Positions 659-61,234 of a DNA stretch of 64,000 bases are shown here, piece by piece. The translations under genes and the position numbers were made by a program. Every line of letters starts with the position of its first letter. Position 1 is the stretch's first letter. This DNA comes from Hanleya hanleyi (Eukaryota; Mollusca; Polyplacophora; Lepidopleurida; Hanleyidae): assembly GCA_036873755.1 (NCBI GenBank), contig JAVTVY010047859.1, forward strand, positions 62,001-126,000, read 5' to 3'. Below the pieces are notes generated by a model that was not told the origin of the DNA, made no database searches, and worked only from the letters and a program-made list of their open reading frames with translations.

Positions 659-2116
659 ATGTCTCCCCCAACATTGGGGGGAGACATCTAGTGTTTGTGC
701 TGTCTGTCTGGATGGATGATGTCTGGATAGATGTCTGTCTGTCCGTCCCCTTACCTTGTCTGCAAGATATCTTGAGAACTACTGGATGGAATTTCACCAA
801 ACTTGGATGGAAGCTTCATTGGGATAGCCCCTCCATTTGATTAGGTTTTGGTGTGTGGGCGTGCATTCATCCGTGTCCGGTGTCCGTCTGTCCGTCCGTC
901 CGTCTATCTACTGGTACATGTATATACAGGCCTTGTCTGCAAGATATCTTGAGAACAACTGGATGGAATTTCACCAAACTTGGATGGAAGCTTCATTGGG
1001 ATAGCCCCCCCATTTGATTAGGTTTTGGTGTGTGTGTGTGCATTCATCCGTGTCCGGTGTCCGTCCGTCCATCTACTGGTACATGTATATACAGGCCTTG
1101 TCTGCAAGATATCTTGAGAACTACTGGACGGAATTCCCTCAAACTTGGATAGAAGCTTCAGTGGGATAGCCCCCTCATTTGATTAGGTTTTGGTGTGTGG
1201 GCGTGCATTCATCCGTGTCCGGTGTCCGTCCGTCCGTCCATCTACTGGTACATGTATATACAGGCCTTGTCTGCAAGATATCTTGAGAACAACTGGATGG
1301 AATTTCACCAAACTTGGATGGAAGCTTCATTGGGATAGCCCCGTCATTTGATTAGGTTTTGGTGTGTGTGTGTGCATTCATCCGTGCCCGGTGTCCGTCC
1401 ATCCGTCCAGCTACTTGTACATGTATATACAGGCCTTGTCTGCAAGATATCTTGAGAACTACTGGACGGAATTTCACCAAACTTGGATGGAAGCTTCAGT
1501 GGGATAGCCCCGTCAGTTGATTAGGTTTTGGTGTGTGTGTGTGTGCATTCATCCGTGTCCGGCATCCGTCCATCCATCTACTTGTACATGTATATACAGG
1601 CCTTGTCTGCAAGATATCTTGAGAACTATTGGACGGAATTTCACCAAACTTGGACAGAAGCTTCAGTGGGATAGCCCCCTCATTTGATTAGGTTTTGGGT
1701 GTGCGTGCATTCATCTGTGTTTGGTGTCCGTCCATCTACTTGTACATGTATATACAGGCCTTGTCTGCAAGATATCTTGAAACTACTGGACGGAATTTCA
1801 CCAAACTTGGATGGAAGCTTCATTGGGATAGCCTCTCATTTGTTTAGGTTTTGGTGTGTGTGTGCGTTCATCCGTGTCCATCGTCCGTCCATCCATTCAT
1901 CTAATTGTACATGTATATACAGACCTTGTCGGCAAGATATCAGGAGAACTACTTGACACTTATTTCTACATTAATTTTATAGCACTTTCCCTTAAATAAT
2001 GTGCCCACTCAACGCAAGGTGGGAGGTTGGGGGAGACGTATGTTTTTGCTTAAAAAAACAACCAGCATAGGCTTCATGCCGGAGCGGCAACCCAAGGGTC
2101 AAAGCGGAACCTCTAG
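659..2116 (+). mobile_element. Tandem-repeat-carrying mobile element, family 1 (Helitron/Helentron-like), forward copy
   Basis: The element starts with a near-perfect hairpin (659-687, ATGTCTCCCCCA / TGGGGGGAGACAT) followed by CTAGTGTTTGTGCT. It holds about seven tandem units and ends near 2116 with a 5-bp-stem hairpin (TGCCG-GAG-CGGCA, about 2079-2091) followed by ...CCTCTAG|T. A second copy in opposite orientation at 6709-8901 has the same two ends, which fixes the borders. A 3' hairpin before a CTAG end and an internal array of 160-180-bp units are known traits of non-autonomous Helitron-like elements and of the bivalve 'pearl' elements. Assignment to that superfamily is inference; no Rep/helicase gene is present. 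It lies in a BLM intron. Confidence 0.65.
740..1960 (+). repeat. ~168-bp tandem array inside the family-1 element
   Basis: Units begin around 755, 917, 1087, 1255, 1424, 1596, 1749 and 1915 with CATGTATATACAGGCCTTGT and run through CAAGATATCTTGAGAAC, TTCACCAAACTTGGATGGAA, GCTTCATTGGGATAGCCCC and ATTAGGTTTTGGTGTG. Each carries a short TG-rich microsatellite and a CCGTCC run. Small differences between units indicate several rounds of expansion. Confidence 0.85.
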
Positions 2117-2256
2117 TTTAAGAATAGCTGAGAGCTATCCCCAGGAGCTAAAATTTAATTATGAAAATTATATTTTTTGCTGCACAGTTTGTTCTCATGT
2201 CAAACATCTTGATTCGCATATGCAATGATGCAAATTATTATATGTGTGTTTTCCAG

Positions 2257-3571
2257 GTTTGCCCGATCCTGTTGATGAGGGAGATGATGAAGGTGGTACA
2301 GAGAATGAATGGGAGTCTCCATACTTCAATGACAAACCCCAGTCTTCTTATGGTGGGGGGCGGGGTGGCAAACAAGGATTCAAAAAGGTAATGTCTTGAT
2401 GGTGATTCAGATATCAAATAAAAATGGCAGTGAAGAAATATGATGTGGAATGGGGAATTCCAAAGCAAATTTGGTTTTTGTATTATTTCATTGAACCGTG
2501 AGATGAGCTCCTGGGGGAATTGTTCCGTCGGACAGTGCAGATTTGCATGCTTGAAGTTTTATTGAGTGACAAGTGCAATACTTCTGTGGTGGCAATGTAA
2601 GCAGATTTGATTTACTGTGTGGAGACAGGTGGAGCTTCAGATACTACATGTAGTTTTGACCATCTTGGTACACATGATGCAAATATGTAATGTGTAGCAA
2701 TAAATGCCTTATATAGTCTATATGGTATCATAAATTGCTAGATAGGGGCCAGTTTCCACCAGATAGAATAATGTTTTCTTCGTATTCTCTGTGACAGAAG
2801 TACAACAGAAAATTTCCTGCCAAGAAAAAGGCTTACAGAGGGGGGAAGTCAGCGGGACAAGGTGGCAAAAGGTGAACTATATTTTTTTTTCCATTCTTTG
2901 AGCTCATTCTACCCATTCAGTCTATGTTAATTCCTGTAATATTTCAATCTCCCTATTAAATTCAATCACCTGAACAAAATTCAATCAATCGTTCTAATCA
3001 ATTTGGATCGGCCACTAAAAATCAATCAATAAAATACAGAAGAATTAATGGATTATCTGCATGATTTTTGACCATTTTGTGAACTTTCTGTTCTAATAAA
3101 TTTGATCACATGATTTTATGGTGGGAAATTTCACATCCTGTGATTGAATTATTAGAGGATTTACCAAAAACATTCATACATACACCCTGTGCCATAATAA
3201 CAGAGTGCAGTATTTTTCTTATACTAAAGTATGGTACTGGAATAACAAAATATGGAATAGCAGTTTGTCCATGTTGACATCTTTCTTTTGACCATGTGAG
3301 ACTTGAGAGAATTGACTCGACGTGGCGTTTCATGTTAACTCCTATGATTTGTTACAGTTCCACATCGAGAGGAGGTTTTGGCTCGTTCAGTCAGTACTCG
3401 TACAACAGCAAACCCAGTAGAGGTACGAGGGGAGGGACCAGGGGAGGTCGAGGAGGTCCGGCTAAGACATCTACTGCCTCCTCCAGCACTGGCTCCAGCA
3501 GACTAGGTTTCATGCCTATCCCACAACCCAAGTCTCGGTCATTCCTGGGAGGAGCTACCGGATTCCTTTGA
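2257..3571 (+). CDS. BLM: BLM-type RecQ DNA helicase, last three exons (partial)
   Basis: Three exons join in one frame: 2257-2387 (acceptor TTTTCCAG, donor GTAATG), 2798-2871 (acceptor GTGACAG, donor GTGAAC) and 3358-3571 (acceptor GTTACAG), ending in TGA. They encode about 138 C-terminal residues: an acidic stretch with an ESPYF motif, a Lys/Arg/Gly-rich stretch (KKYNRKFPAKKKAYRGG), RG repeats, and a terminus ending SRLGFMPIPQPKSRSFL plus seven residues. Vertebrate BLM also ends in a basic, Ser-rich tail with a short 'SKLGIM..PKP..RPFL' terminal motif and an upstream acidic/HYF segment, so the match is specific though distant. BLM unwinds recombination intermediates with TOP3A and RMI1; this tail follows the HRDC domain. 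The helicase core lies left of the window. Exon phases agree (0, then 2). Identity is inferred from the terminal motif and layout, because no helicase motif is visible here. Confidence 0.72.
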
Positions 3572-4565: not shown

Positions 4566-4759
4566 TGGTTTATGAAGCTACGTTGAACTGTACAAAGAAA
4601 TCAATATTATTGTTTGCTTGCAATATATCCCTGTATAATTTTATCAGCATTATTCTAAAACGTGGTTTATGAAGCTACGTTGAACTGTACAAAGAAATCA
4701 ATATTATTGTTTGCTTGCAATATATCCCTGTATAATTTTATCAGCATTATTCTAAAACG
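4566..4759 (+). repeat. Perfect 97-bp tandem duplication
   Basis: Bases 4566-4662 and 4663-4759 read identically from TGGTTTATGAAGCTACGTTG to CAGCATTATTCTAAAACG with no mismatch that I can see. Complete identity points to a very recent duplication, or to an assembly artefact. Confidence 0.95.
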
Positions 4760-5240
4760 TAGCTCCTGTGAATCTAATGTATTAGGACTGTGAGACAGTT
4801 CCAAATACAATATCAAATGTGTATACATTGTTCTCAAATGAGATTACAGCTCCTTTAACAGAATTTTACAGATCGACTTCTGTTTTAGTACCATGGTATT
4901 TTATTGTGAATTTTATTATGGTATCTCTATTCAAATTGCTATATTTCTCTCCAAAAAAATTGACATCTAAGAACCCCATAACTTTAATATGGAGTTCTAT
5001 AAACTAGTATCATATTTTAGACCATCAGTGTTATCTATGCACTCCTCAAACTTGCATATACTAAGGGCATACTATGATACCACCTTATAAAATCTTCCTA
5101 TTTTATTCACTTCGATTTCATGTAACATTATAATGTGCCATCTTTGTAAATTTATTTCAAGTCTATATCTGTATTTAAACTGTTGTATTGTATATAAAAA
5201 GTATGAATCTATAGGAGGTTGTATCTCTGTATTTGATTGT

Positions 5241-38329: not shown

Positions 38330-39345
38330 TTAAATATGGCTGCCATGGCGGCCATCTTGAATTTGCCAGTGAAATCTTGTCATTATTTTTCGGTAACTAC
38401 TGCATGGATCTTTCTCAAATTTGGTACACAGGTTCCTCTTGGGGTCTAGTTGTGCAAGATACCTTTTGTGGTCTGATTCAAAAATCCAATATGGCCACCA
38501 GGCGGCCATCTTGGATTTCCCGATGAAACATTGTCATCGCGATTTCTCAGGAACTACTTCGTGGATCTTCCTCATATTTGGTACACAGGTTCCCCTTGGG
38601 GTCTAGTTGTGCAAGATACCTTTTCTGCTCTGATTCGAACATTCAATATGGCCACCAGGCGGCCATCTTGGATTTCCCTATGAAACTTCGTTATCGTGAT
38701 TTATCAGGAAGTACTGCATGGATCTTTCTCAAATTTGATACACAGGTTCCCCTTAGTGTCTAGTTGTGCAAGATACTTTTGTGGTCTGATTCAGAAATCC
38801 AATATGGCCACCAGGTGGCCATCTTGGATTTCCAGATGAAACATTGTTATCACGATTTCTCAGGAACTACTGGATGGATCTTTCTCAAATTTGGTACAGA
38901 GGTTCCCTTTGGTGTCTAGTTGTGCAAGATGCAATTTGTGGTCTGATTGAAAAATCCAATATGGCCACCAGGCAGCCATCTTGAATTTCCAGATGAAACA
39001 TTGTTATCGTGATTTCTCAGGAACTACTGCTTGGATCTTTCTCAAATTTGGTACAGAGGTTGCCCTTGGGGTCTAGCTGTGCAAGATACCATTTGTGGTC
39101 TGATTGAAAAATCCAATATGGGCACCAGGTGGCCATCTTGGATTTCTGCATGAAACATTGTTATTGCGATTTCTCAGGAACTACTACATGGATCTTTCTC
39201 TAATTTGGTACACAGGTTCCCCTTGGTCTAGTTGTGCAAGATACCTTTTCTGCTCTGATTCAAAAATCCAATATGGGCACCAGGCGGCCATCTTGGATTT
39301 CCCCATGAAACTTTGTTATCGTGAATTCTCAGGATATTACTGCAT
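38330..39345 (+). repeat. ~155-bp tandem array of the family-2 element
   Basis: Units carry TCAGGAACTACTGCATGGAT, CTTTCTCAAATTTGGTACAC, AGGTTCC(C)CTTGGGGTCTAG, TTGTGCAAGATACCTTTT, TCCAATATGGCCACCAGG and CGGCCATCTTGGATTTCC. About six and a half units lie here and one more at 46256-46385. Open frames reported within are by-products. Confidence 0.92.
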
Positions 39346-39651
39346 GGATGTTGACACCTGTAACCATCTCGGTCATCTATACGCGGTAAGACTGACCATG
39401 GGATCGTGTGTATCCATTTTCAGCCTACTTTCGGCAACTGCAAGAGGGAATTTCCAGAAATCAATACCACGTGACTTCGTCAGCCAATCAGCTAAATTCT
39501 ACCGACGTAACCCCAACGTAACTCGCCATTTTCGAGTCATGTGATGTCCTACTTGTTCAAAATTACAGATCTACCACACCTCTTGGATGATACGAAAGTT
39601 ATTCATTCCTATATATTTGGTAAGCCCGGGCAATATCTGTTATTTGCGCTG

Positions 39652-39786
39652 AAAACTTACCTCACTTCCACTCTTTGCATTTCTTGTCTACATGAAATAT
39701 CACAGTAAGAATTTAAATGACACAGTTATCTCCCCTGCTAGTCACCTGATAGCATAGCTACCCACAATTCCACTTCCTTCTTGTTC
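39652..39786 (+). repeat. DIRS left inverted terminal repeat (135 bp)
   Basis: Runs from AAAACTTACCTCACTTCCAC to CCACTTCCTTCTTGTTC. It matches the reverse complement of 45910-46044 without a mismatch. Confidence 0.95.
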
Positions 39787-39934
39787 TACTGCTTCGTAGG
39801 GCTGGAAGTAAACATTGTCAACTCCGTGAAAAAGTGCCTTTTCTAGCGAAACTACTCGCAGTTGGATTACCTCAGACGTCTGATTTCCTGCAAGAAGTAC
39901 TTTGGGAAGTATTCAATAAGTTATCAGCGTAAAA

Positions 39935-42422
39935 ATGGCTCATAATATGTCTCAATTGTCATGCATGTCTTGTGGAGGTGACAAGCCTAGTTATGACCTT
40001 CACTCAACGTGTCCGCCATGCCGCCAGGGAAGAATCTGTACATGGGACACGGCCTGTGAAGAGTGTATTGTGTGGGCGCCCGGCATATTCCAGGTGTATC
40101 TAGCCGGTTCTCTGGCAGCTAACAAGGGAAATAATGTTGTTATGCCTAGCAATCTCGCCAACGAGACATATGTAGCACAGTCTCCTCGTACTAGTGTAGG
40201 CGAGGAGTCTAGGGGGTTTGTTAGTTCAGTAGCTGGGTCTACGTTAGTCAGCCTATTGGATGTAAATAAAGATAAACAAACGCCCCCCCCCCGCTCACGA
40301 TGCTTCCATTTCAGGCCAGGCGAGGGGTCAATCAGGTAAGGGATCGACCCGGTTGGTACAAGTGGAAGGAGTCATCGAAGATATGGAATCTGGTACAACG
40401 ACGACTGTGGATGTGGAGATTCCTATTGAGCGGACGCCTGAATGTGACGATGAAGGGAAATCGGTGACGGACCCAGGCTTAGCGTGGGAAAGCCAGGGGA
40501 CTCCGATCGCTCGATCGGAGTCAACTTATGATTACGAAAACTTGGGCAGCACCAGTGAGGGGCCTAGTGTTAAGTTTTCATTTGGGTCCGGGGTTGGGAA
40601 AATACCTTCCTCGACGCTGTCGAGGCCTGGACTTCCCGGTCGCTCAGTTACGCCTTTAACTGTTGCTTCCGGTTTGTCTGAATTTCCCCAACCTGCTTCC
40701 GGTTACTCTGGTGGCCTTCCTCGTTCCCTTGCCGAGACGTTTGTGTCTACGAGCCTTCTGGGCCACCAGAGATTAAGGTTCCCGCAACAACGGCAGTATG
40801 GTATGTATTCAGGTACCCATGATATGTCAAATTTTTTGCCTGTGTCTGAGTTGCGTTATCAAGAACCCTCAATCAGACCATGTCAAATTATGCGGCATCC
40901 GGTTGCTGGTCTACCTTCGCCCTTGCGTGGCTTAGGTCAGATATCTGCTTCCGGGGGTGTTCGTGGTACGGGACCGGGATTATTACGTATGATGCGTCCT
41001 CCTATACGTGCTTCCGGTTTACGACCTCGTATGCCAGTTCACCGACCTTTACAGTGGCCGTGCTCACGTCCAGCTGGAGGGTCCTTGAGTGTGAACACAC
41101 CTCGTCAGGCCTTGCTTCCGGTCCACTCTCAAGTGACTGATCCCACATTGGCTGCCATACTGCGCGGTATGGAACAGCAACGTGAGGAAATGAAGGAATT
41201 GAGAGAGATGATGACCAGTCAATTCCGAAGTAGTACGCCACTGCTTCCGGTTTTGACTGAACAGTCTAGGAAACCGGAAGCTAATTTGTCGAGGACTATC
41301 CCTTCCAATACTCCCTCCTGGCAGGAAGCCCCGGAAGCTATGGAAGTGGATAGGGACCAGTACGGTAGATCTGAATTGAATGAACCTACCAATACTGATC
41401 CGGATGCTAGGAAATATTATGAGCTTATTTCCGGCATCTATGACTTAATTCCTGATATGCAGCTTCCGGTCCCACATGCGGGGGATATTGAAACTGAATC
41501 AGGAGAGTCAAACCGGGTTACGAGGTCGGCTACCACGCTTCCGGCCTCAACTGCTATTCATTCTATTTGCCACTTGTTCCATAGAACTTTAGCAGAACCC
41601 ACTACGCAGGAGGAACGTGCTATAAGGTTGAGACCAAAAGCTCGCTTCCGCCCTGCAGGATCTTCTGGTCCGTTCCCAGTACAGAAGCCAAACACACGAA
41701 GTTACGGCGTACATAACTCACCGTTTAGCTTCCGGTCTGCAGAGGTGAACGGCGACTTTCAGTATTTATGCTCTAGCAATACTAAAGTGCCTAGTAATCC
41801 AGATGTTCCTTGCACGAACAAACAGGCCGCAGTACTTGAGGAAACTGCTCGACAAGGAGTGGCGATTACGAATCACCTTGACTGGTTTCTTAAAGCCATA
41901 AAGGATGGTTTATTCTCGCTGTCGGGTGCGGACAGTCAAGAACAGTTACAGGAGGGTATAAACCTCGTTCTTGACTACCAGAAGATTGCTTCCGGTGCTG
42001 TAGAAGATTTACTGGTACACAATGCCTACCTATCTTCTATGCTAGTGTATTTAAGGAGAAAGGCCTTCATTCCTTTTATGCATAGTTACACACCGGAAGC
42101 TGTAAAGAGGAGTCTACTAGAGACATCTACGGCTCCTTCTTTACTGTTTGGTGATGCTGTTGCCGAAGTTCGACCTGAAATGGATCGTATAGAACATGTC
42201 AGGTCAGTTGCTTCCGGTGCTTCGTCTAAGAGACCTATGGCTTCCGGGTCGGGTCCAAAGGCGAAGAAGGCTAAGAAGAACCCGCCTAGTTCCAAGGCTA
42301 ATAAGGGTGCTTCCGGCCAACAGCAAAGTCAAGCGCCTGCTTCTGTACAGCCTAGAGTATCTACCTATGGCCATAAGAAGCAGGGTAAGGGGAAATTTAA
42401 GCAGTCGAAGAAGGATTCCTGA
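39935..42422 (+). CDS. gag: DIRS gag-like protein (ORF1), frame broken at a C run
   Basis: The first part (39935-40339, 134 codons) starts AAAAATGG and has a cysteine pattern C10-x2-C13, H23-x2-C26-x2-C29, C41-x2-C44, as in the N-terminus of DIRS gag proteins. The second part, in another frame, is open from the C run at 40282-40292 to TGA at 42422. It holds a Pro/Ser-rich middle, a coiled-coil-like stretch near 41170-41215 (EQQREEMKELREMM), and a basic tail (GPKAKKAKKNPPSSKANKG). Read together, the parts make about 830 codons. The switch falls at the homopolymer in the ACAAACGCCCC... run, so it is most likely an indel or sequencing slip, though programmed slippage cannot be excluded. The protein probably packages the element RNA. 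Confidence 0.85.
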
Positions 42423-44303
42423 TGTCTCGGGCCGTACCGGGTGGCTTCCGGTATGGCGGGAACACCGAGACATAACGTTTCCAGTTCCCCAGCAACTAGA
42501 CCTTCCGGTAGGGGGAAGGCTGCAGTTGTTTTGGAGGAACTGGATAAGGATCGGGACGGAAGCGTGGGTCATTCGAACGATCAGATACGGCTATCGCCTA
42601 TTGTTCGACACGCTTCCTCCCTTGACTGCTCATCCCCTTCCGTCTCGTATACCATTACGAACGGGTCATCTATCAGCAATACAGTCCTCTGTGGACAAGC
42701 TGATAGAGAAGGCAGCTGTAATAGAGCTTCCGGTTTGGGACACGTCACCCGGGTTCTATTCGCCGGTCTTTCTGGTCCCCAAGAAAGACACGTCCGAGAT
42801 GCGCATGGTTATAAACCTAAAGCGCCTCAACAAGGACTACCTCACTCCACCGCCACATTTCCGCATGGAGTCCTTCCGGTCTATCCGGACGGTACTCAGG
42901 CAAGGGGAATGGCTGACTTCTCTGGATTTAAGGGATGCATACCTGCATATCCCGATACATCTGGGGGACAGGAAGTACTTGAGATTCATGGTCGGCAAAC
43001 GACGCTTCCAAATTCAAGTGCTTCCGTTCGGCCTGTCCACTTCCCCTTGGGTGTTTACACGAGTGTTTACACCAGTGGCACAGTTCCTGCACAGTCTAGG
43101 TATAAAGTACCACTTTTATATCGACGACTCCCTGCTAAGGAATGCCTGCAAGGAACAGTTAATCCTAGACACCCAGTTTGTCTTAAGGATGTTGACTTCT
43201 CTGGGATACATCCCACACGAAGAGAAATCAGAGCTGACTCCTTCGCAAAGGCGCAAATTTCTGGGGGTGGAATACGATACGCTACGAGCTCTCGCCAAAC
43301 CCCCAGAAGATCGATGGCTAAAGATAACGACGAAGATACCTCAGTTCCTCAAGTTATCTCAGGCCAGGGCTTTACACTTTGCTACGATAATCGGCCTCTT
43401 GACGTCAACACAGGACGTAACCCCAAGAGGGCGGTTGCAGCTTCGGCCATTAATGATTTACTTCAATCATCAATGGGTCGAAAGGCAGTTGAATCCGTGG
43501 ATACCTGTAACACCGCTAGTCAAACAATGCCTCCTATGGTGGCTGGATCCACTCAACGTTATGCCAGGTGTGTCCCTACTTCCGTTTCGTCCGTCACATC
43601 ACCTGTTCACGGACACATCTATGGAAGGATGGGGAGCCCACCTCGAGTCCAAGTCGACATCCGGGTTATGGACAATCGAGGAACGCTCGTACCATATAAA
43701 CGTGTTGGAGTTTATGGCAGTGACACATGCCATCCGCACGTGGGTGAGCGTATTGACCGACAAGAACCTGCTAGTTGCGACGGACAACACATCAGTTGTG
43801 GCCTATATCAACAAGCAGGGGGGGACGAGATCTCCGCAATTACAAAGCCAAGCGGAAATCTTTTTCGGTCTGTGTTGGGACAACAACATATCGGTGTTGG
43901 CCAGGCACATCCCGGGGGTACTGAACGTCTTAGCGGATTCGCTTTCACGACGGAATCAGATAATTCCCACGGAGTGGCAACTTCACCCAGACATACTAAA
44001 ACAAATAGCTCAGGTCTGGGAGATGCCACACATAGATCTGTTCGCCACTCGGCGCAACAATCTACTGCCCCTGTTCATGTCGCCGGTCCCGGATCCGTCG
44101 GCATATGCAGTGGACGCACTGTCGCAGGACTGGTCAAGGATGGTAGCATATGCGTTCCCTCCCCCAGCTATCCTAGCGAAGGTACTCCAGAAGATCCACG
44201 AGCACACATGTGTCGTTTACCTGATTGTTCCGTGGTGGCCAGCAAGGCCGTGGTTCCCGGACCTTCTGGATCTTCTGGTAGATGTACCACGACAGCTTCC
44301 GGT
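40665..44303. repeat. Recurring 9-mer GCTTCCGGT across the DIRS coding region
   Basis: Exact forward copies start at 40665, 40695, 41010, 41114, 41243, 41462, 41728, 41988, 42210, 42444, 42726 and 44295; exact reverse copies (ACCGGAAGC) start at 41273 and 42092. Copies with one change include 40895, 40947, 41537, 42240, 42309, 42501 and 42872. Codon phase varies: it encodes ASG at 40665, LPV at 41114, FRS at 41728 and PEA on the reverse copies. Spacing from 41243 to 42726 is 219-282 bases. Function is unknown. Confidence 0.9.
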
Positions 44304-44553
44304 ATGGCACAATCTATTGCGCCAGCCCGGAACGTCGATATTTCACAGCCAACCAGGACTGTTCCACTACCACGTGTGCAAGTGCTCAAGAAGCACTTTG
44401 CTCAGGCGGGATTTTCAGCGGAGGTTGGGCGCCGAATGGCACAATCTATTCGACCGTCCTCTTCCGCTGTATACAACTCAAAGTGGGCAATCTTCGATCT
44501 TTGGTGTGGAGAGAGGGATGTTAATCCATCCTGCGCCACTATCCCTGAAGTAG
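42196..44553 (+). CDS. DIRS reverse transcriptase-RNase H (ORF2)
   Basis: An intact 785-codon frame overlapping the end of gag; the true start may be near the gag stop, where SGRTGWLPVW begins the conserved part. Reverse transcriptase motifs: FLVPKKD and RMVINLKRLN (about residues 195-215), catalytic LDLRDAYLHI (about 240), LPFGLSTSPWVF (about 280) and YIDD (about 307). RNase H: LFTDTSMEGWGAH (about 470), HINVLEFMAV (about 495) and ATDNTSVVAYINKQGG (about 525). The tail has HIDLFATRRN and DALSQDW, usual in DIRS and Ngaro elements. All catalytic Asp/Glu residues are visible. No methyltransferase domain is recognised. Confidence 0.95.
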   Translation: MSGQLLPVLRLRDLWLPGRVQRRRRLRRTRLVPRLIRVLPANSKVKRLLLYSLEYLPMAIRSRVRGNLSSRRRIPDVSGRTGWLPVWREHRDITFPVPQQLDLPVGGRLQLFWRNWIRIGTEAWVIRTIRYGYRLLFDTLPPLTAHPLPSRIPLRTGHLSAIQSSVDKLIEKAAVIELPVWDTSPGFYSPVFLVPKKDTSEMRMVINLKRLNKDYLTPPPHFRMESFRSIRTVLRQGEWLTSLDLRDAYLHIPIHLGDRKYLRFMVGKRRFQIQVLPFGLSTSPWVFTRVFTPVAQFLHSLGIKYHFYIDDSLLRNACKEQLILDTQFVLRMLTSLGYIPHEEKSELTPSQRRKFLGVEYDTLRALAKPPEDRWLKITTKIPQFLKLSQARALHFATIIGLLTSTQDVTPRGRLQLRPLMIYFNHQWVERQLNPWIPVTPLVKQCLLWWLDPLNVMPGVSLLPFRPSHHLFTDTSMEGWGAHLESKSTSGLWTIEERSYHINVLEFMAVTHAIRTWVSVLTDKNLLVATDNTSVVAYINKQGGTRSPQLQSQAEIFFGLCWDNNISVLARHIPGVLNVLADSLSRRNQIIPTEWQLHPDILKQIAQVWEMPHIDLFATRRNNLLPLFMSPVPDPSAYAVDALSQDWSRMVAYAFPPPAILAKVLQKIHEHTCVVYLIVPWWPARPWFPDLLDLLVDVPRQLPVWHNLLRQPGTSIFHSQPGLFHYHVCKCSRSTLLRRDFQRRLGAEWHNLFDRPLPLYTTQSGQSSIFGVERGMLIHPAPLSLK

Positions 44554-45461
44554 CAGAGTTCCTATTGCACTTGTTCAGGGATAGGGGCCTGGTGCCCGCT
44601 ACGGTAGAAGGTTATAGAGCGGCTATTGCTCAACCTATTCTACTGGGTACTGGGATTAATCCCTCGACTGATCCAAACTTATCTGCACTAATCAAGTCGT
44701 ACAAGATAACTGGTCAGTCGGCTGTTCCGAAATTACCTAAGTGGGACTTAGCCTTAGTACTTCGGCAATTAGGGAAGCCACCTTTCGAGCCAATAGAGGC
44801 TATTGAGCTGAAAATGTTATCATACAAAACTTCGTTTTTGTTGGCTCTGGCTTCGGCAGCTAGAGTGTCCGAGCTGCATGCGCTCGATCAAAGGAACATC
44901 AGACACTCTAGGGACTGGAGCAAGGTAGTTCTCACAACGGTTCCTGAGTTTGTGGCTAAGAATCAAGCCCTCTACGATTCCATATCTCGAGAGTTCACAA
45001 TTCCAGCCTTATCTGATTTCCTTTCGTCCGGTCTTGAATCAGACATGTTAATGTGTCCGGTTCGGGCTCTTGCGTGTTACCTGAATCGTACAGAGGAGAT
45101 CAGAGCGGGAAGGAGGCGTTTGTTTATCCCTTTCGATCCCAAAGCCAAACAAGAAATTAGTAAAAACACTATCTCGAGTTGGCTCAAAAATACGATTCGG
45201 CTAGCGTACTCCACGGCTACTGATAGGCAAGCCGCGCTTGTAAACGTTTCGGGTCACGAGATTAGGGCATTAGCGGCATCATGGCCTCTATGGTCCAACA
45301 GATCGGTGACTGACATTATGAGGGCGTGCTACTGGAGGTCAAACACGACATTTGCCTCCTACTATCTCCGGGACATGACGTTGGCATGTAACGACCTCTA
45401 TTCCATCGGCCCACTTGTGACCGCACAGCGGGTGTCAGGGGGACCGAGGCCAGCAATATAG
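42441..45461 (+). CDS. DIRS tyrosine recombinase (ORF3), with long N-terminal overlap of ORF2
   Basis: A 1006-codon open frame. The recognisable recombinase starts near 44360 (VQVLKKHFAQAGFSAEVGRR, about residue 640). It has a SAM-like core-binding part and a catalytic part with Arg in ASAARVSELHAL (about 807), His-x-x-Arg in GHEIRALA (about 939-942) and the Tyr nucleophile in FASYYLRDM (about 974). It joins a closed DNA copy to the chromosome without target duplication. The first ~640 codons overlap ORF2 in a different frame over 2.1 kb without a stop. Long ORF2/ORF3 overlap is known in DIRS elements. Whether the overlapped part is translated is unclear; its composition (Ser/Arg/Gly/Thr-rich) looks secondary to ORF2. 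Confidence 0.92.
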   Translation: MASGMAGTPRHNVSSSPATRPSGRGKAAVVLEELDKDRDGSVGHSNDQIRLSPIVRHASSLDCSSPSVSYTITNGSSISNTVLCGQADREGSCNRASGLGHVTRVLFAGLSGPQERHVRDAHGYKPKAPQQGLPHSTATFPHGVLPVYPDGTQARGMADFSGFKGCIPAYPDTSGGQEVLEIHGRQTTLPNSSASVRPVHFPLGVYTSVYTSGTVPAQSRYKVPLLYRRLPAKECLQGTVNPRHPVCLKDVDFSGIHPTRREIRADSFAKAQISGGGIRYATSSRQTPRRSMAKDNDEDTSVPQVISGQGFTLCYDNRPLDVNTGRNPKRAVAASAINDLLQSSMGRKAVESVDTCNTASQTMPPMVAGSTQRYARCVPTSVSSVTSPVHGHIYGRMGSPPRVQVDIRVMDNRGTLVPYKRVGVYGSDTCHPHVGERIDRQEPASCDGQHISCGLYQQAGGDEISAITKPSGNLFRSVLGQQHIGVGQAHPGGTERLSGFAFTTESDNSHGVATSPRHTKTNSSGLGDATHRSVRHSAQQSTAPVHVAGPGSVGICSGRTVAGLVKDGSICVPSPSYPSEGTPEDPRAHMCRLPDCSVVASKAVVPGPSGSSGRCTTTASGMAQSIAPARNVDISQPTRTVPLPRVQVLKKHFAQAGFSAEVGRRMAQSIRPSSSAVYNSKWAIFDLWCGERDVNPSCATIPEVAEFLLHLFRDRGLVPATVEGYRAAIAQPILLGTGINPSTDPNLSALIKSYKITGQSAVPKLPKWDLALVLRQLGKPPFEPIEAIELKMLSYKTSFLLALASAARVSELHALDQRNIRHSRDWSKVVLTTVPEFVAKNQALYDSISREFTIPALSDFLSSGLESDMLMCPVRALACYLNRTEEIRAGRRRLFIPFDPKAKQEISKNTISSWLKNTIRLAYSTATDRQAALVNVSGHEIRALAASWPLWSNRSVTDIMRACYWRSNTTFASYYLRDMTLACNDLYSIGPLVTAQRVSGGPRPAI

Positions 45462-45759
45462 CTACAAAAGTCCGGGCGTACAGTTGTAACCCTGCTTGCG
45501 GGTGAGTGCATTTTTTTCTCTCGGCCCCTTTCGAAAAAAAGGGGGGGGCGTATCTTGCATCTCAGCCTTGAAGTCAGAGTAGCAACAGAGGTTCCCTGTG
45601 TACCATAGGCATGCAGGTTATTACTGTTGTATGATTTCATGGATCCTCTGTGAGGTAGAAGATCTATGATTTCTACTCTATACTAGTCACTATGTATGGC
45701 ATTTATCACTAACCACGGATTGTATCAGTTTGCCCACCTACCTTACGGTGGCACTCTAT

Positions 45760-45855
45760 GCAAAGAGTGGAAGTGAGGTAAGTTTTCAGCGCAAATAACA
45801 AAAAAAAATTACAAGTAAATTTTCTGTTATTAAGCTAAAACTTACCTCACTTCCA
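45760..45855. repeat. DIRS internal complementary region
   Basis: The first half (45760-45799, GCAAAGAGTGGAAGTGAGGT...GCGCAAATAAC) is complementary to the left terminus. The second half (45809-45855, TTACAAGTAAATTTTCTGTT...CACTTCCA) is complementary to the right terminus. Together they give the sequence of a joined left-right end, the template that restores full ends during DIRS replication. A nine-base A run lies at the junction. Confidence 0.93.
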
Positions 45856-45909
45856 GTGATGCCCGCCCAACCTCCCCGCTATGATACATCCAGACCATGT
45901 ATCGCAGTG

Positions 45910-46044
45910 GAACAAGAAGGAAGTGGAATTGTGGGTAGCTATGCTATCAGGTGACTAGCAGGGGAGATAACTGTGTCATTTAAATTCTTACTGTGATATT
46001 TCATGTAGACAAGAAATGCAAAGAGTGGAAGTGAGGTAAGTTTT
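45910..46044 (-). repeat. DIRS right inverted terminal repeat (135 bp)
   Basis: GAACAAGAAGGAAGTGG to GAGGTAAGTTTT, the exact reverse complement of 39652-39786. The element continues past it with AGCTTAATAACAGAAAATTT and a T run up to about 46082. Confidence 0.95.
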
Positions 46045-46568
46045 AGCTTAATAACAGAAAATTTACTTGTAAATTTTTTTTATTTCCGAAGTGGTATGAA
46101 AATCCGTAATTTATCAGATTTCTCGAGTCTGCTTTCCGCCGAATGAAGGCCGAACAGAATCCGGTAAAGTACCGGATATCGCTCCGCGAAAAATGGAGAC
46201 ACACGATTCGCAACCAATCTTATGGATGGCGGAGTGTACGCAAATGGTATGTTGATACACAGGTTCCCCTTGTGGTCCAGTTGTGCAAGATACCTTTTTT
46301 GGTCCATTTCGAAAATCCAATATGGCCGCATCTTGAATTTCCCATGAAACTTTATCATGAAATCTCAGGAAGTAACTGCATGGATCATTTAGTGTTCAGG
46401 GGGGACAACACAAGTTAGAAACTCATCTATTGCAGTTCTTTAGTAAAAATTTCTCACAGCTACTTTCTCCAGTTACAGACAGATGAGCTACAGTGCCGTG
46501 GCACTATCTTTTTTATATTCCTATCAATAAAAATACTCAAAACTCAATTTCAAAATTCCCCATAAACT

Positions 46569-47497: not shown

Positions 47498-48100
47498 GTA
47501 ATTTCCCTATTAATTCGCGATGTAGTGATGAAACTCGCCACTCCAAAAATTGGCTACTTCCGAATTATTTGTCGAGCGAATTCCAGAAAAACGCGAGTGT
47601 TCGAATTAAATGTCGCGCCGATTTTCACGGGAGATCCAAAATGGCAGACCGCTTTGCCGTTGTCGTAGTGATCGTATTTATTACCATGTATTAACTTTGA
47701 TGTCTCATCATAGTTTCCATAAAAGGCAGTGTATGATGTCAGAAAATCTCCTCTACCCTGATAAGGCCGTCCTTAAAATTATCTGGGTTTCCGGTAACCC
47801 GACCGACCCATCAAAAACTGAAAATCGAGGGTCGGCGGTTTTATTATTATTTTTTTTTCACGAGAAGAGAAATAAAATCCAAACCTGGTCTGTATTTGCA
47901 AGCTAATTCAATTCGTCTATCTTCTACAAATGATTGTTCTCGCTGCTCTAAAATGCATTTTTTTTTCACAATAAAATGTTCGCCGGTCGTTAACAGAACT
48001 GAATTCAGCGATACCGGAAGCACATGGCAAATCTCGGGGCTTTAGTTATTGCCCGTGACAAAAAGCTGTAGTTGTCTCCCTTGCCGTTCCGGGAACTAAA

Positions 48101-60029: not shown

Positions 60030-60750
60030 CTCGTTATCACTCACGCAATACAGTGATCACTCGCGCAATACATTGATCACTCACGCAATACATTGATCAG
60101 TCACGCAATACAGTGATTACTCGCACAATACATGATCACTCGTGCAATACGTTGATCACTCGCGTAATACAGTGATCACTCGCGCAATACATGATCACTC
60201 GCACATGATCACTTGCGCAATACAGTGATCACTCGCGCAATGCAGTGATCAGTCGTGCAATACAGTGATCACTCGCGCAATACAGTGATCACTCATGCAA
60301 TGCAGTGATCACTCGTGCAATACATGATCACTTGCACAATACATTGATCACTCGCGCAATAGTGATCACTCGCGCAGTACATGATCACTTGCACAATACA
60401 TGATCACTCATGCAATACGTTGATCACTCACGTAATACAGTGATCACTCGCGCAATACATGACCACTCGCACATGATCACTTGCACAATACAGTGATCAC
60501 TTGCACAATGCAGTGATCACTCGCGCAATGCAGTGATCACTCGCGCAATACAGTGATCACTCGCACAATAGTGATCACTCAGGGATCACTCGCGCAATGC
60601 AGTGATCACTCGCGCAATGCAGTGATCACTCGTGCAATGCAGTGATCACTCGTGCAATGCAGTGATCACTCACACAATACATGATTACTTGCACAACACA
60701 TTGATCACTCGTGCAATACATTGATCACTCGTGCAATACAGTGATCACTC
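60030..60750 (+). repeat. ~19-20-bp minisatellite of GTGATCAC palindromes
   Basis: About 35 units of GTGATCACTCGCGCAATACA with variants (CATGATCACTCGCAC, TTGATCACTCACG). Nearly every unit contains the palindrome TGATCA. The flanks, AAGAAGAGTGATCGCTCTTC (59910) and AAGAAGAGTGATCACTCTCC (60909), suggest it expanded from inside a dispersed repeat that also occurs near 18868-19020 and 31870-31920. Confidence 0.93.
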
Positions 60751-61234
60751 ACGCTATACGAAACCTTGGAGAGTGATCAACAGATCTCACAAGTTTTATA
60801 AGTACATGAGACTGTATTCTGACTCGAGACATCTGTGACCAAAGATTAATCAATTCTTTGTTCTCCACCTCAATACTAGAAGGAGCAAGTCTCAAGGATT
60901 TGAGTTAAGAAGAGTGATCACTCTCCAAGATCTCTCTTCATTGCATTTACAATTTCGAGGAGTGCAATCAAAAGCTTTCCTGAAAAAAACTTGGCAGATT
61001 GATGAAGAGCAAGAATTTATCTTCTAAACTTAAAAAGGAGAGACTGAAAAAATCCATATTCTGACATGTACATGATGTGTAGTACCAATTTACATGAGTG
61101 CATATTTAATATGTTACATGTGGGTCATTTACATACTTCTGTTATCTGGTACAACAAACATGAAAAAAAGATCAAACCACATACCATGGGTATATGGGGT
61201 CTGTGTGAAAGGAAATACGACCTAGGGGAGATAG

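Follow-up and report, generated by a model that had tools for sequence, protein, structure and literature searches.

What constraint could scatter one nine-base word, GCTTCCGGT, through the coding sequence of a retrotransposon? The question is raised by a 64,000-nucleotide stretch of the mollusc Hanleya hanleyi (GenBank assembly GCA_036873755.1, contig JAVTVY010047859.1, positions 62,001 to 126,000 of the forward strand; hereafter the window), where the word recurs in an element that is a DIRS-type retrotransposon by its inverted terminal repeats, its internal complementary regions and its reverse transcriptase (RT) and RNase H. The word is in excess over chance, lies mostly in sense orientation, is spread over the codon phases, is conserved at third codon positions and is also present in a second, distant family. 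The explanation preferred here, to which somewhat less than an even chance is given, is that of a multivalent array of cis-acting, sense-oriented sites to which a protein would bind, most probably on the element RNA, either in packaging or assembly by Gag or through a host RNA-binding protein.

A dispersed array of one short word

Exact GCTTCCGGT occurs 15 times in the window. Fourteen copies, 12 in sense and 2 in antisense orientation, fall at 40665-44303 inside the element, which reproduces exactly the count of the original prediction, and the 15th is found at 48013 on the minus strand, outside the DIRS element. The excess over chance claimed at that time holds as well, since 100 shuffled versions of the full 64 kb with the same dinucleotide content gave a mean of 0.24 exact copies and a maximum of 2. 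The one-mismatch copies, put earlier at no fewer than seven, number nine between 40895 and 43028, and just two of the one-off forms alter the core (40895 and 43020). The set of sites was defined by the degenerate word [GC]CTTCCGG[TGC], with its ends scored free. It matches 21 sites (18 in sense, 3 in antisense orientation), all but one of them within 40665-42880. They are listed here with their retention in the diverged copies described below.

40665..40673, plus strand: site 1, GCTTCCGGT, exact; in 0/7 diverged copies
40695..40703, plus strand: site 2, GCTTCCGGT, exact; core kept in 7/7 diverged copies
40947..40955, plus strand: site 3, GCTTCCGGG, degenerate-word match
41010..41018, plus strand: site 4, GCTTCCGGT, exact; kept in 7/7 diverged copies
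41114..41122, plus strand: site 5, GCTTCCGGT, exact
41243..41251, plus strand: site 6, GCTTCCGGT, exact; kept in 1/7 diverged copies
41273..41281, minus strand: site 7, GCTTCCGGT antisense, exact; kept in 6/7 diverged copies
41330..41338, minus strand: site 8, GCTTCCGGG antisense, degenerate-word match; kept in 2/6
41462..41470, plus strand: site 9, GCTTCCGGT, exact; kept in 4/7 diverged copies
41537..41545, plus strand: site 10, GCTTCCGGC, degenerate-word match
41728..41736, plus strand: site 11, GCTTCCGGT, exact
41988..41996, plus strand: site 12, GCTTCCGGT, exact; kept in 5/5 with data
42092..42100, minus strand: site 13, GCTTCCGGT antisense, exact; kept in 4/5 with data
42210..42218, plus strand: site 14, GCTTCCGGT, exact
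42240..42248, plus strand: site 15, GCTTCCGGG, degenerate-word match
42309..42317, plus strand: site 16, GCTTCCGGC, degenerate-word match; coincides with a family-B site in the protein-guided alignment
42444..42452, plus strand: site 17, GCTTCCGGT, exact; kept in all mapped copies with data
42501..42509, plus strand: site 18, CCTTCCGGT, degenerate-word match
42726..42734, plus strand: site 19, GCTTCCGGT, exact; coincides with a family-B site
42872..42880, plus strand: site 20, CCTTCCGGT, degenerate-word match; coincides with a family-B site
44295..44303, plus strand: site 21, GCTTCCGGT, exact; isolated from the rest

Positions 1 and 9 of the word are variable, position 1 being G at 19 of the 21 window-family sites. 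The base directly 5' of the word is A or T at 18/21 sites, whereas flanks beyond one or two bases carry little information. Within the array block, sequences with at least two mismatches are about as frequent as in shuffled sequence. Such a pattern looks more like a binding site whose seven-base core hardly varies than like decaying copies of a repeat.

Genome-wide, the 9-mer is found 23,506 times in 2.48 Gb, about once per 106 kb, and the same word read backwards 15,979 times. As a control, neither the window element nor two other elements described below, L036 and L011, contain this reversed word. The genome holds 385 and 393 pairs of the 9-mer with a distance of 30 bases or less, versus 5 and 21 for the reversed pattern. 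Seven loci outside DIRS with such paired copies (L012-L015, L019, L020 and L022) show no match to the window Gag and carry 2-8 sites but no dispersed array, the sole RT match among them being a weak one (L013, 22% identity). At 4638-4964 of one of these loci, L014, an 18-bp minisatellite repeats this core and is enclosed by an open frame of 881 codons running on the opposite strand.

The spacings of 219, 266, 260, 222, 234 and 282 quoted in the original prediction are correct, and that run of exact sense copies is unusually even (coefficient of variation 0.095; 0/5000 uniform placements equally even). The evenness is nevertheless lost when all 20 block sites are considered (p 0.27), no period fits (p 0.49), and two sites of the run, 41243 and 41462, are kept in only 1/7 and 4/7 diverged copies. 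Regular spacing is therefore not supported as a property of the array.

Codon choice in the Gag frame

The original prediction held that protein sequence does not explain the motif because its reading changes with the codon phase, and both statements are borne out. The sites are spread over all three codon phases and are read, all in the Gag frame, as ASG, LPV or LPA, FRS and, for antisense sites, PEA. Permuting synonymous codons of the gag-only region 2000 times gave means of 0.29 sense and 0.13 antisense exact copies, with maxima of 3 and 2, versus 8 and 2 observed. Each of the eight ASG in the Gag frame is encoded as GCT TCC GGN (4e-10 from codon usage away from the sites), TCC accounting for 14% of serine codons elsewhere in this frame, and all three Pro-Glu-Ala are CCG GAA GCT. 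Three of four Leu-Pro-Val and one of two Phe-Arg-Ser also use the motif.

Conservation among diverged copies

Eight distinct copies from the host genome, about 13-19% diverged from the window, were used to follow the sites; L003 is contained in L016, L006 in L034 and L004 in L011, each pair representing the same genomic copy. Conservation at synonymous positions, a check proposed with the original prediction, is observed. At gag-only sites, 24/252 third codon positions differ (22/198 in sense and 2/54 in antisense sites) versus 901/3748 outside. For four of the eight copies, the ratio of shared sites to the union of sites reaches 0.70, 0.50, 0.79 and 0.76, versus 0.24, 0.23, 0.35 and 0.33 for control 9-mers. 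A pairwise test on four representatives is weaker, with 0.107 in the site union versus 0.222 outside, a difference of about two standard deviations (shifted null: mean 0.219, standard deviation 0.055, lowest 0.022).

Retention per site was tested on seven copies, L029 being omitted for its little gag coverage and L003 as a part of L016. Ten gag-only sense sites were tested, three of which have conserved amino acids in fewer than five lineages and stand outside the following count. Among the seven whose codon runs have amino acids conserved in at least five of seven lineages, six are identical throughout, versus 30% of control runs of three codons and 45% of those of two codons. At the seventh (40947), the core is kept in 6/6 copies with data, and the variable last base differs in some of them.

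A second family with its own array

L011, a distant DIRS copy of greater age, has inverted repeats of its own; in it TTCCGGT occurs 11 times in sense and once in antisense over the whole element, always in the part covering gag and the start of RT. Its RT piece, used as a query, led to a second high-copy family, called family B. Thus, the motif is present in related DIRS elements, as the original prediction had suggested checking, and the second array occupies the same half of the element, with most of its sites in the same orientation. The family-B copy L036 has an open 866-codon Gag frame and shares with the window element 30% identity in Gag and, over 383 residues, 67% in RT. CTTCCGGT, with 10 sense and 2 antisense copies, is the commonest 8-mer of its 4.6-kb stretch, and position 1 before the core is most often A (5/10 sense CTTCCGGT sites). 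Synonymous permutation of its Gag frame gave mean TTCCGGT counts of 1.04 sense and 0.30 antisense versus 11 and 1 observed. Eight of nine family-B stretches carry 12-14 sense and 1-4 antisense TTCCGGT; the ninth, L040, which aligns in part and covers no B Gag site, carries 1 and 1. In the seven copies covering sites, L039 being omitted as 99.6% identical to L036, 1-2 of 30 third positions differ in sites versus 12.6-19.8% outside.

The sites of both families seem hardly to coincide in position. In a protein-guided MAFFT alignment, none of 13 gag-only window sites matches a family-B site, a result depending on this single alignment at 30% identity, and family B displays 10 sense and 2 antisense TTCCGG in the aligned gag-only region. 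In the RT overlap, three of seven window sites coincide with family B, and two of the other four fall in gaps. A tblastn alignment of L011 puts its LPV site near the window LPV of site 41243. Within the window family, single sites are gained or lost. Indeed, a site at 42477 is intact in 8/8 diverged copies and in 0/9 window-group copies with data, and the opposite is seen for 40665, missing in 7/7 diverged copies with data. Between families, the alignment points to a near-complete turnover of sites. The array seems to outlive individual sites, as expected if selection targets the array and not fixed positions.

Two more distant retroelements of the host genome, L045 and L046, whose RT is 28% identical to the window RT over 312 residues and 33% over 63, respectively, have no CTTCCGG. 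These two are the ones examined among 43 places with the pattern PFGLSTAP, many of which have another residue at S. In L045, the retroelement at 1852-3523 carries PFGLSTAPYVYT in RT, its upstream open reading frame (ORF) encodes a CCHC zinc knuckle, and no array is present.

Orientation and the favoured reader

The 18:3 ratio of sense to antisense sites in the window family departs from the ratio of about 52:48 predicted by the gag codon model (p 0.0017). CTTCCGGT in L036 stands at 10:2, and both families pooled give 28:5 (p 6.6e-5), three sites being common to both families. A sense-RNA reading is favoured because a double-stranded DNA site gives no reason for such a bias.

About twenty short, mostly sense sites, mainly in the gag half, would form a multivalent cis-acting signal, with a putative recognition core of CTTCCGG in the window family and of TTCCGGT in family B, and the reader of this signal probably acts on sense RNA. 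The element's own Gag may bind the sites as a dispersed packaging or assembly signal, several Gag contacts then marking the genomic RNA for particle formation. A close alternative within the RNA reading would be a host RNA-binding protein exporting or protecting the unspliced RNA. Gag is ranked first among candidate readers because the array accompanies gag in both families and because multiple dispersed coat-protein sites have been described for RNA viruses (in passages of PMC6281560), and a host RNA-binding protein ranks next. The earlier suggestion of a Gag site or an RNA signal fits the orientation, whereas binding itself is only predicted.

The dispersed packaging signals of RNA viruses such as MS2, parechovirus and hepatitis B virus, as presented in parts of PMC6281560, also consist of many sense copies varying around one word. 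They are, however, stem-loops with a known coat protein, whereas local folding revealed no stem-loop presentation of the DIRS sites, which are not unusually unpaired and share no common pattern; moreover, the array described here is hosted by a DIRS retrotransposon. By analogy with these viruses, it may tentatively be proposed that DIRS elements carry a positionally fluid RNA assembly code, in which many putative Gag sites lie across codon phases, their number and orientation being under stabilising selection while single sites come and go.

Several observations weigh against a sense-RNA signal read by Gag. Neither a Gag domain nor an RNA-binding fold was recognised in the element's Gag, and the stretch 39600-40600, which covers the leader and N-terminal Gag, has no site. 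In local folding, the predicted unpaired probability of sense sites is 0.341 versus 0.389 for GC-matched 9-mers, a value as low as that being reached by 8% of control draws, and no common unpaired pattern was seen across sites. Three of the ten gag-only sense sites are poorly kept (40665 in 0/7, 41243 in 1/7 and 41462 in 4/7 copies). Antisense sites are superfluous under a pure RNA reading, yet two of the three are well retained (41273 in 6/7 and 42092 in 4/5), although their retention by itself is not significant as 45% of control codon pairs are identical throughout. Finally, the conservation counts are not independent, because the diverged copies are related by descent.

Alternative explanations

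The main rival, judged unlikely, is a double-stranded DNA array for a host ETS-type transcription factor (reverse complement [ACG]CCGGAAG[TCG]), which would act within gag as an enhancer or insulator. The gypsy insulator, whose Su(Hw) sites are arrayed in the 5' leader, offers a likeness as a retroelement with about a dozen sites for one factor, but its sites are non-coding and clustered, whereas the DIRS array lies inside coding sequence over about 2.2 kb. The reverse complement of the word does hold the ETS core, positions 1 and 9 vary as in a binding site, third positions of the antisense sites are conserved (2/54 changed), and L036 carries ACTTCCGGT (ACCGGAAGT on the other strand) at 5 sense and 2 antisense places. 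Yet none of the 21 window-family sites has a T after GGAAG; the preferred GGAAGT is thus absent from them and they are never CCGGAAGT, given as an ETS 8-mer in part of PMC3464117. The strong sense bias in two families, for which the codon model predicts none, is also unexpected, and the ETS suggestion of the original prediction is only partly supported. Compared with the CCGGAAGT sites of ETS/GABP promoters (same passages of PMC3464117), the likeness is confined to the core CCGGAAG on the antisense strand, the window family differing by the lack of the T, by its orientation bias and by its location inside genes.

Less probable again are sense RNA sites for a host protein other than Gag, which would export unspliced RNA, suppress cryptic splicing or help to define exons. 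The restriction to the gag half is not predicted by this explanation, and no RNA-binding motif is known to match, no search for one having been made. The CAR-E of intronless human mRNAs differs in sequence from the DIRS word. According to passages of PMC4604431, it is a proposed repeated element of transcripts leaving the nucleus unspliced, and the sense bias and coding-region location of the DIRS sites resemble those of such proposed export elements; its function is, however, disputed, mutated elements having left export unaffected, and no evolutionary array is shown for it in those passages. Target sites of a small RNA (a guide with ACCGGAAG in its seed) or of another host silencing factor are very unlikely: the sense orientation would suit a complementary guide, but the element should shed such sites, yet they are kept, and no guide was searched for. 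A mutational or duplication artefact, such as a dispersed or decayed repeat or a minisatellite, is disfavoured and highly improbable. A minisatellite with the same word does exist in L014, whereas the uninformative flanks, the missing tail of decayed forms, the third-position conservation and the different positions in family B all speak against such an origin. Selection on the tripeptides ASG, LPV and PEA themselves is largely refuted and has almost no likelihood left. ASG and LPV do occur at family-B sites too, and some tripeptides of the Gag frame, one LPV and one FRS, are not written with the motif. The sites nevertheless encode several peptides in different phases, every ASG and PEA uses motif codons, synonymous shuffles fall far below the observed sense count, and codon runs for conserved residues are fully identical far more often at sense sites than in controls.

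The host element and its surroundings

The element is organised as follows.

39638..39792, plus strand: left inverted terminal repeat; arms 39652-39792 and 45904-46044 are 99% complementary
39935..40276, plus strand: N-terminal Gag reading, Cys/His-rich, without Pfam match, in a frame different from that of the main Gag ORF
40266..42422, plus strand: main Gag-like ORF, without Pfam match; 30% identical to the family-B Gag ORF
42193..44553, plus strand: RT/RNase H ORF (RVT_1 2.2e-23, RT_RNaseH 5.1e-06)
42423..45461, plus strand: recombinase-frame ORF, open through the entire RT overlap
45758..45855, no strand assigned: internal complementary region with two complementary pairings; 39638-39680 pairs with 45758-45800
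45904..46084, minus strand: right inverted terminal repeat and extension, complementary to the left arm

Internal complementary regions at the 3' end belong to the DIRS1-like definition, as worded in part of PMC3266345. Gag combines a Cys/His-rich N terminus with a lysine-rich C terminus, and a poly-C run (40283-40292) close to where the N-terminal and the main Gag frames meet varies in length among family copies. The Pfam scan of the RT ORF returned RT and RNase H domains only. The C-terminal part of the recombinase frame has a weak Phage_integrase match (E 0.012, 15.8 bits versus a cutoff of 27.1), and this frame matches L011 at 68% over 285 residues. Between 42423 and 44250 it contains no stop, versus a mean of 19.6 in RT-synonymous shuffles (lowest of 2000: 9); the stop-free overlap fits real double coding. 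Long ORF overlaps are described for half of 28 annotated DIRS1-like elements (in passages of PMC3266345).

Close copies of the element are many: a first look gave 13,651 candidates, and the 150 scored matches among them show 98-100% identity across the RT piece used. No relatives were found in viral contigs, either by RT protein or by a degenerate DIRS RT pattern; the latter matched two stretches of bacterial records in genome contigs and none in plasmids. A 157-bp satellite stands left of the element (38333-39349) and part of a unit stands right of it (46252-46327); the element may therefore have inserted into or next to a satellite array. The internal complementary region and the right terminal repeat both carry GTGGAAGTGA (45767-45776 and 46025-46034), which includes an ETS-like GGAAGTG word. 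Further away, a 20-bp tandem repeat (ATCACTCGCGCAATACAGTG, about 38 copies) covers 60036-60759.

Significance of the array

In the openly licensed literature searched, no array of this kind was found described for DIRS or other retrotransposons, nor was any explanation found of the way in which a DIRS element recognises its RNA, and three forms of the word gave no full-text match. The array means that a DIRS retrotransposon keeps a nucleotide-level code within its coding region even though Gag is down to 30% identity. As a strongly selected, multi-copy word, it offers a nine-base bait for its binder, and the many copies of the element are available to follow the turnover of sites under selection.

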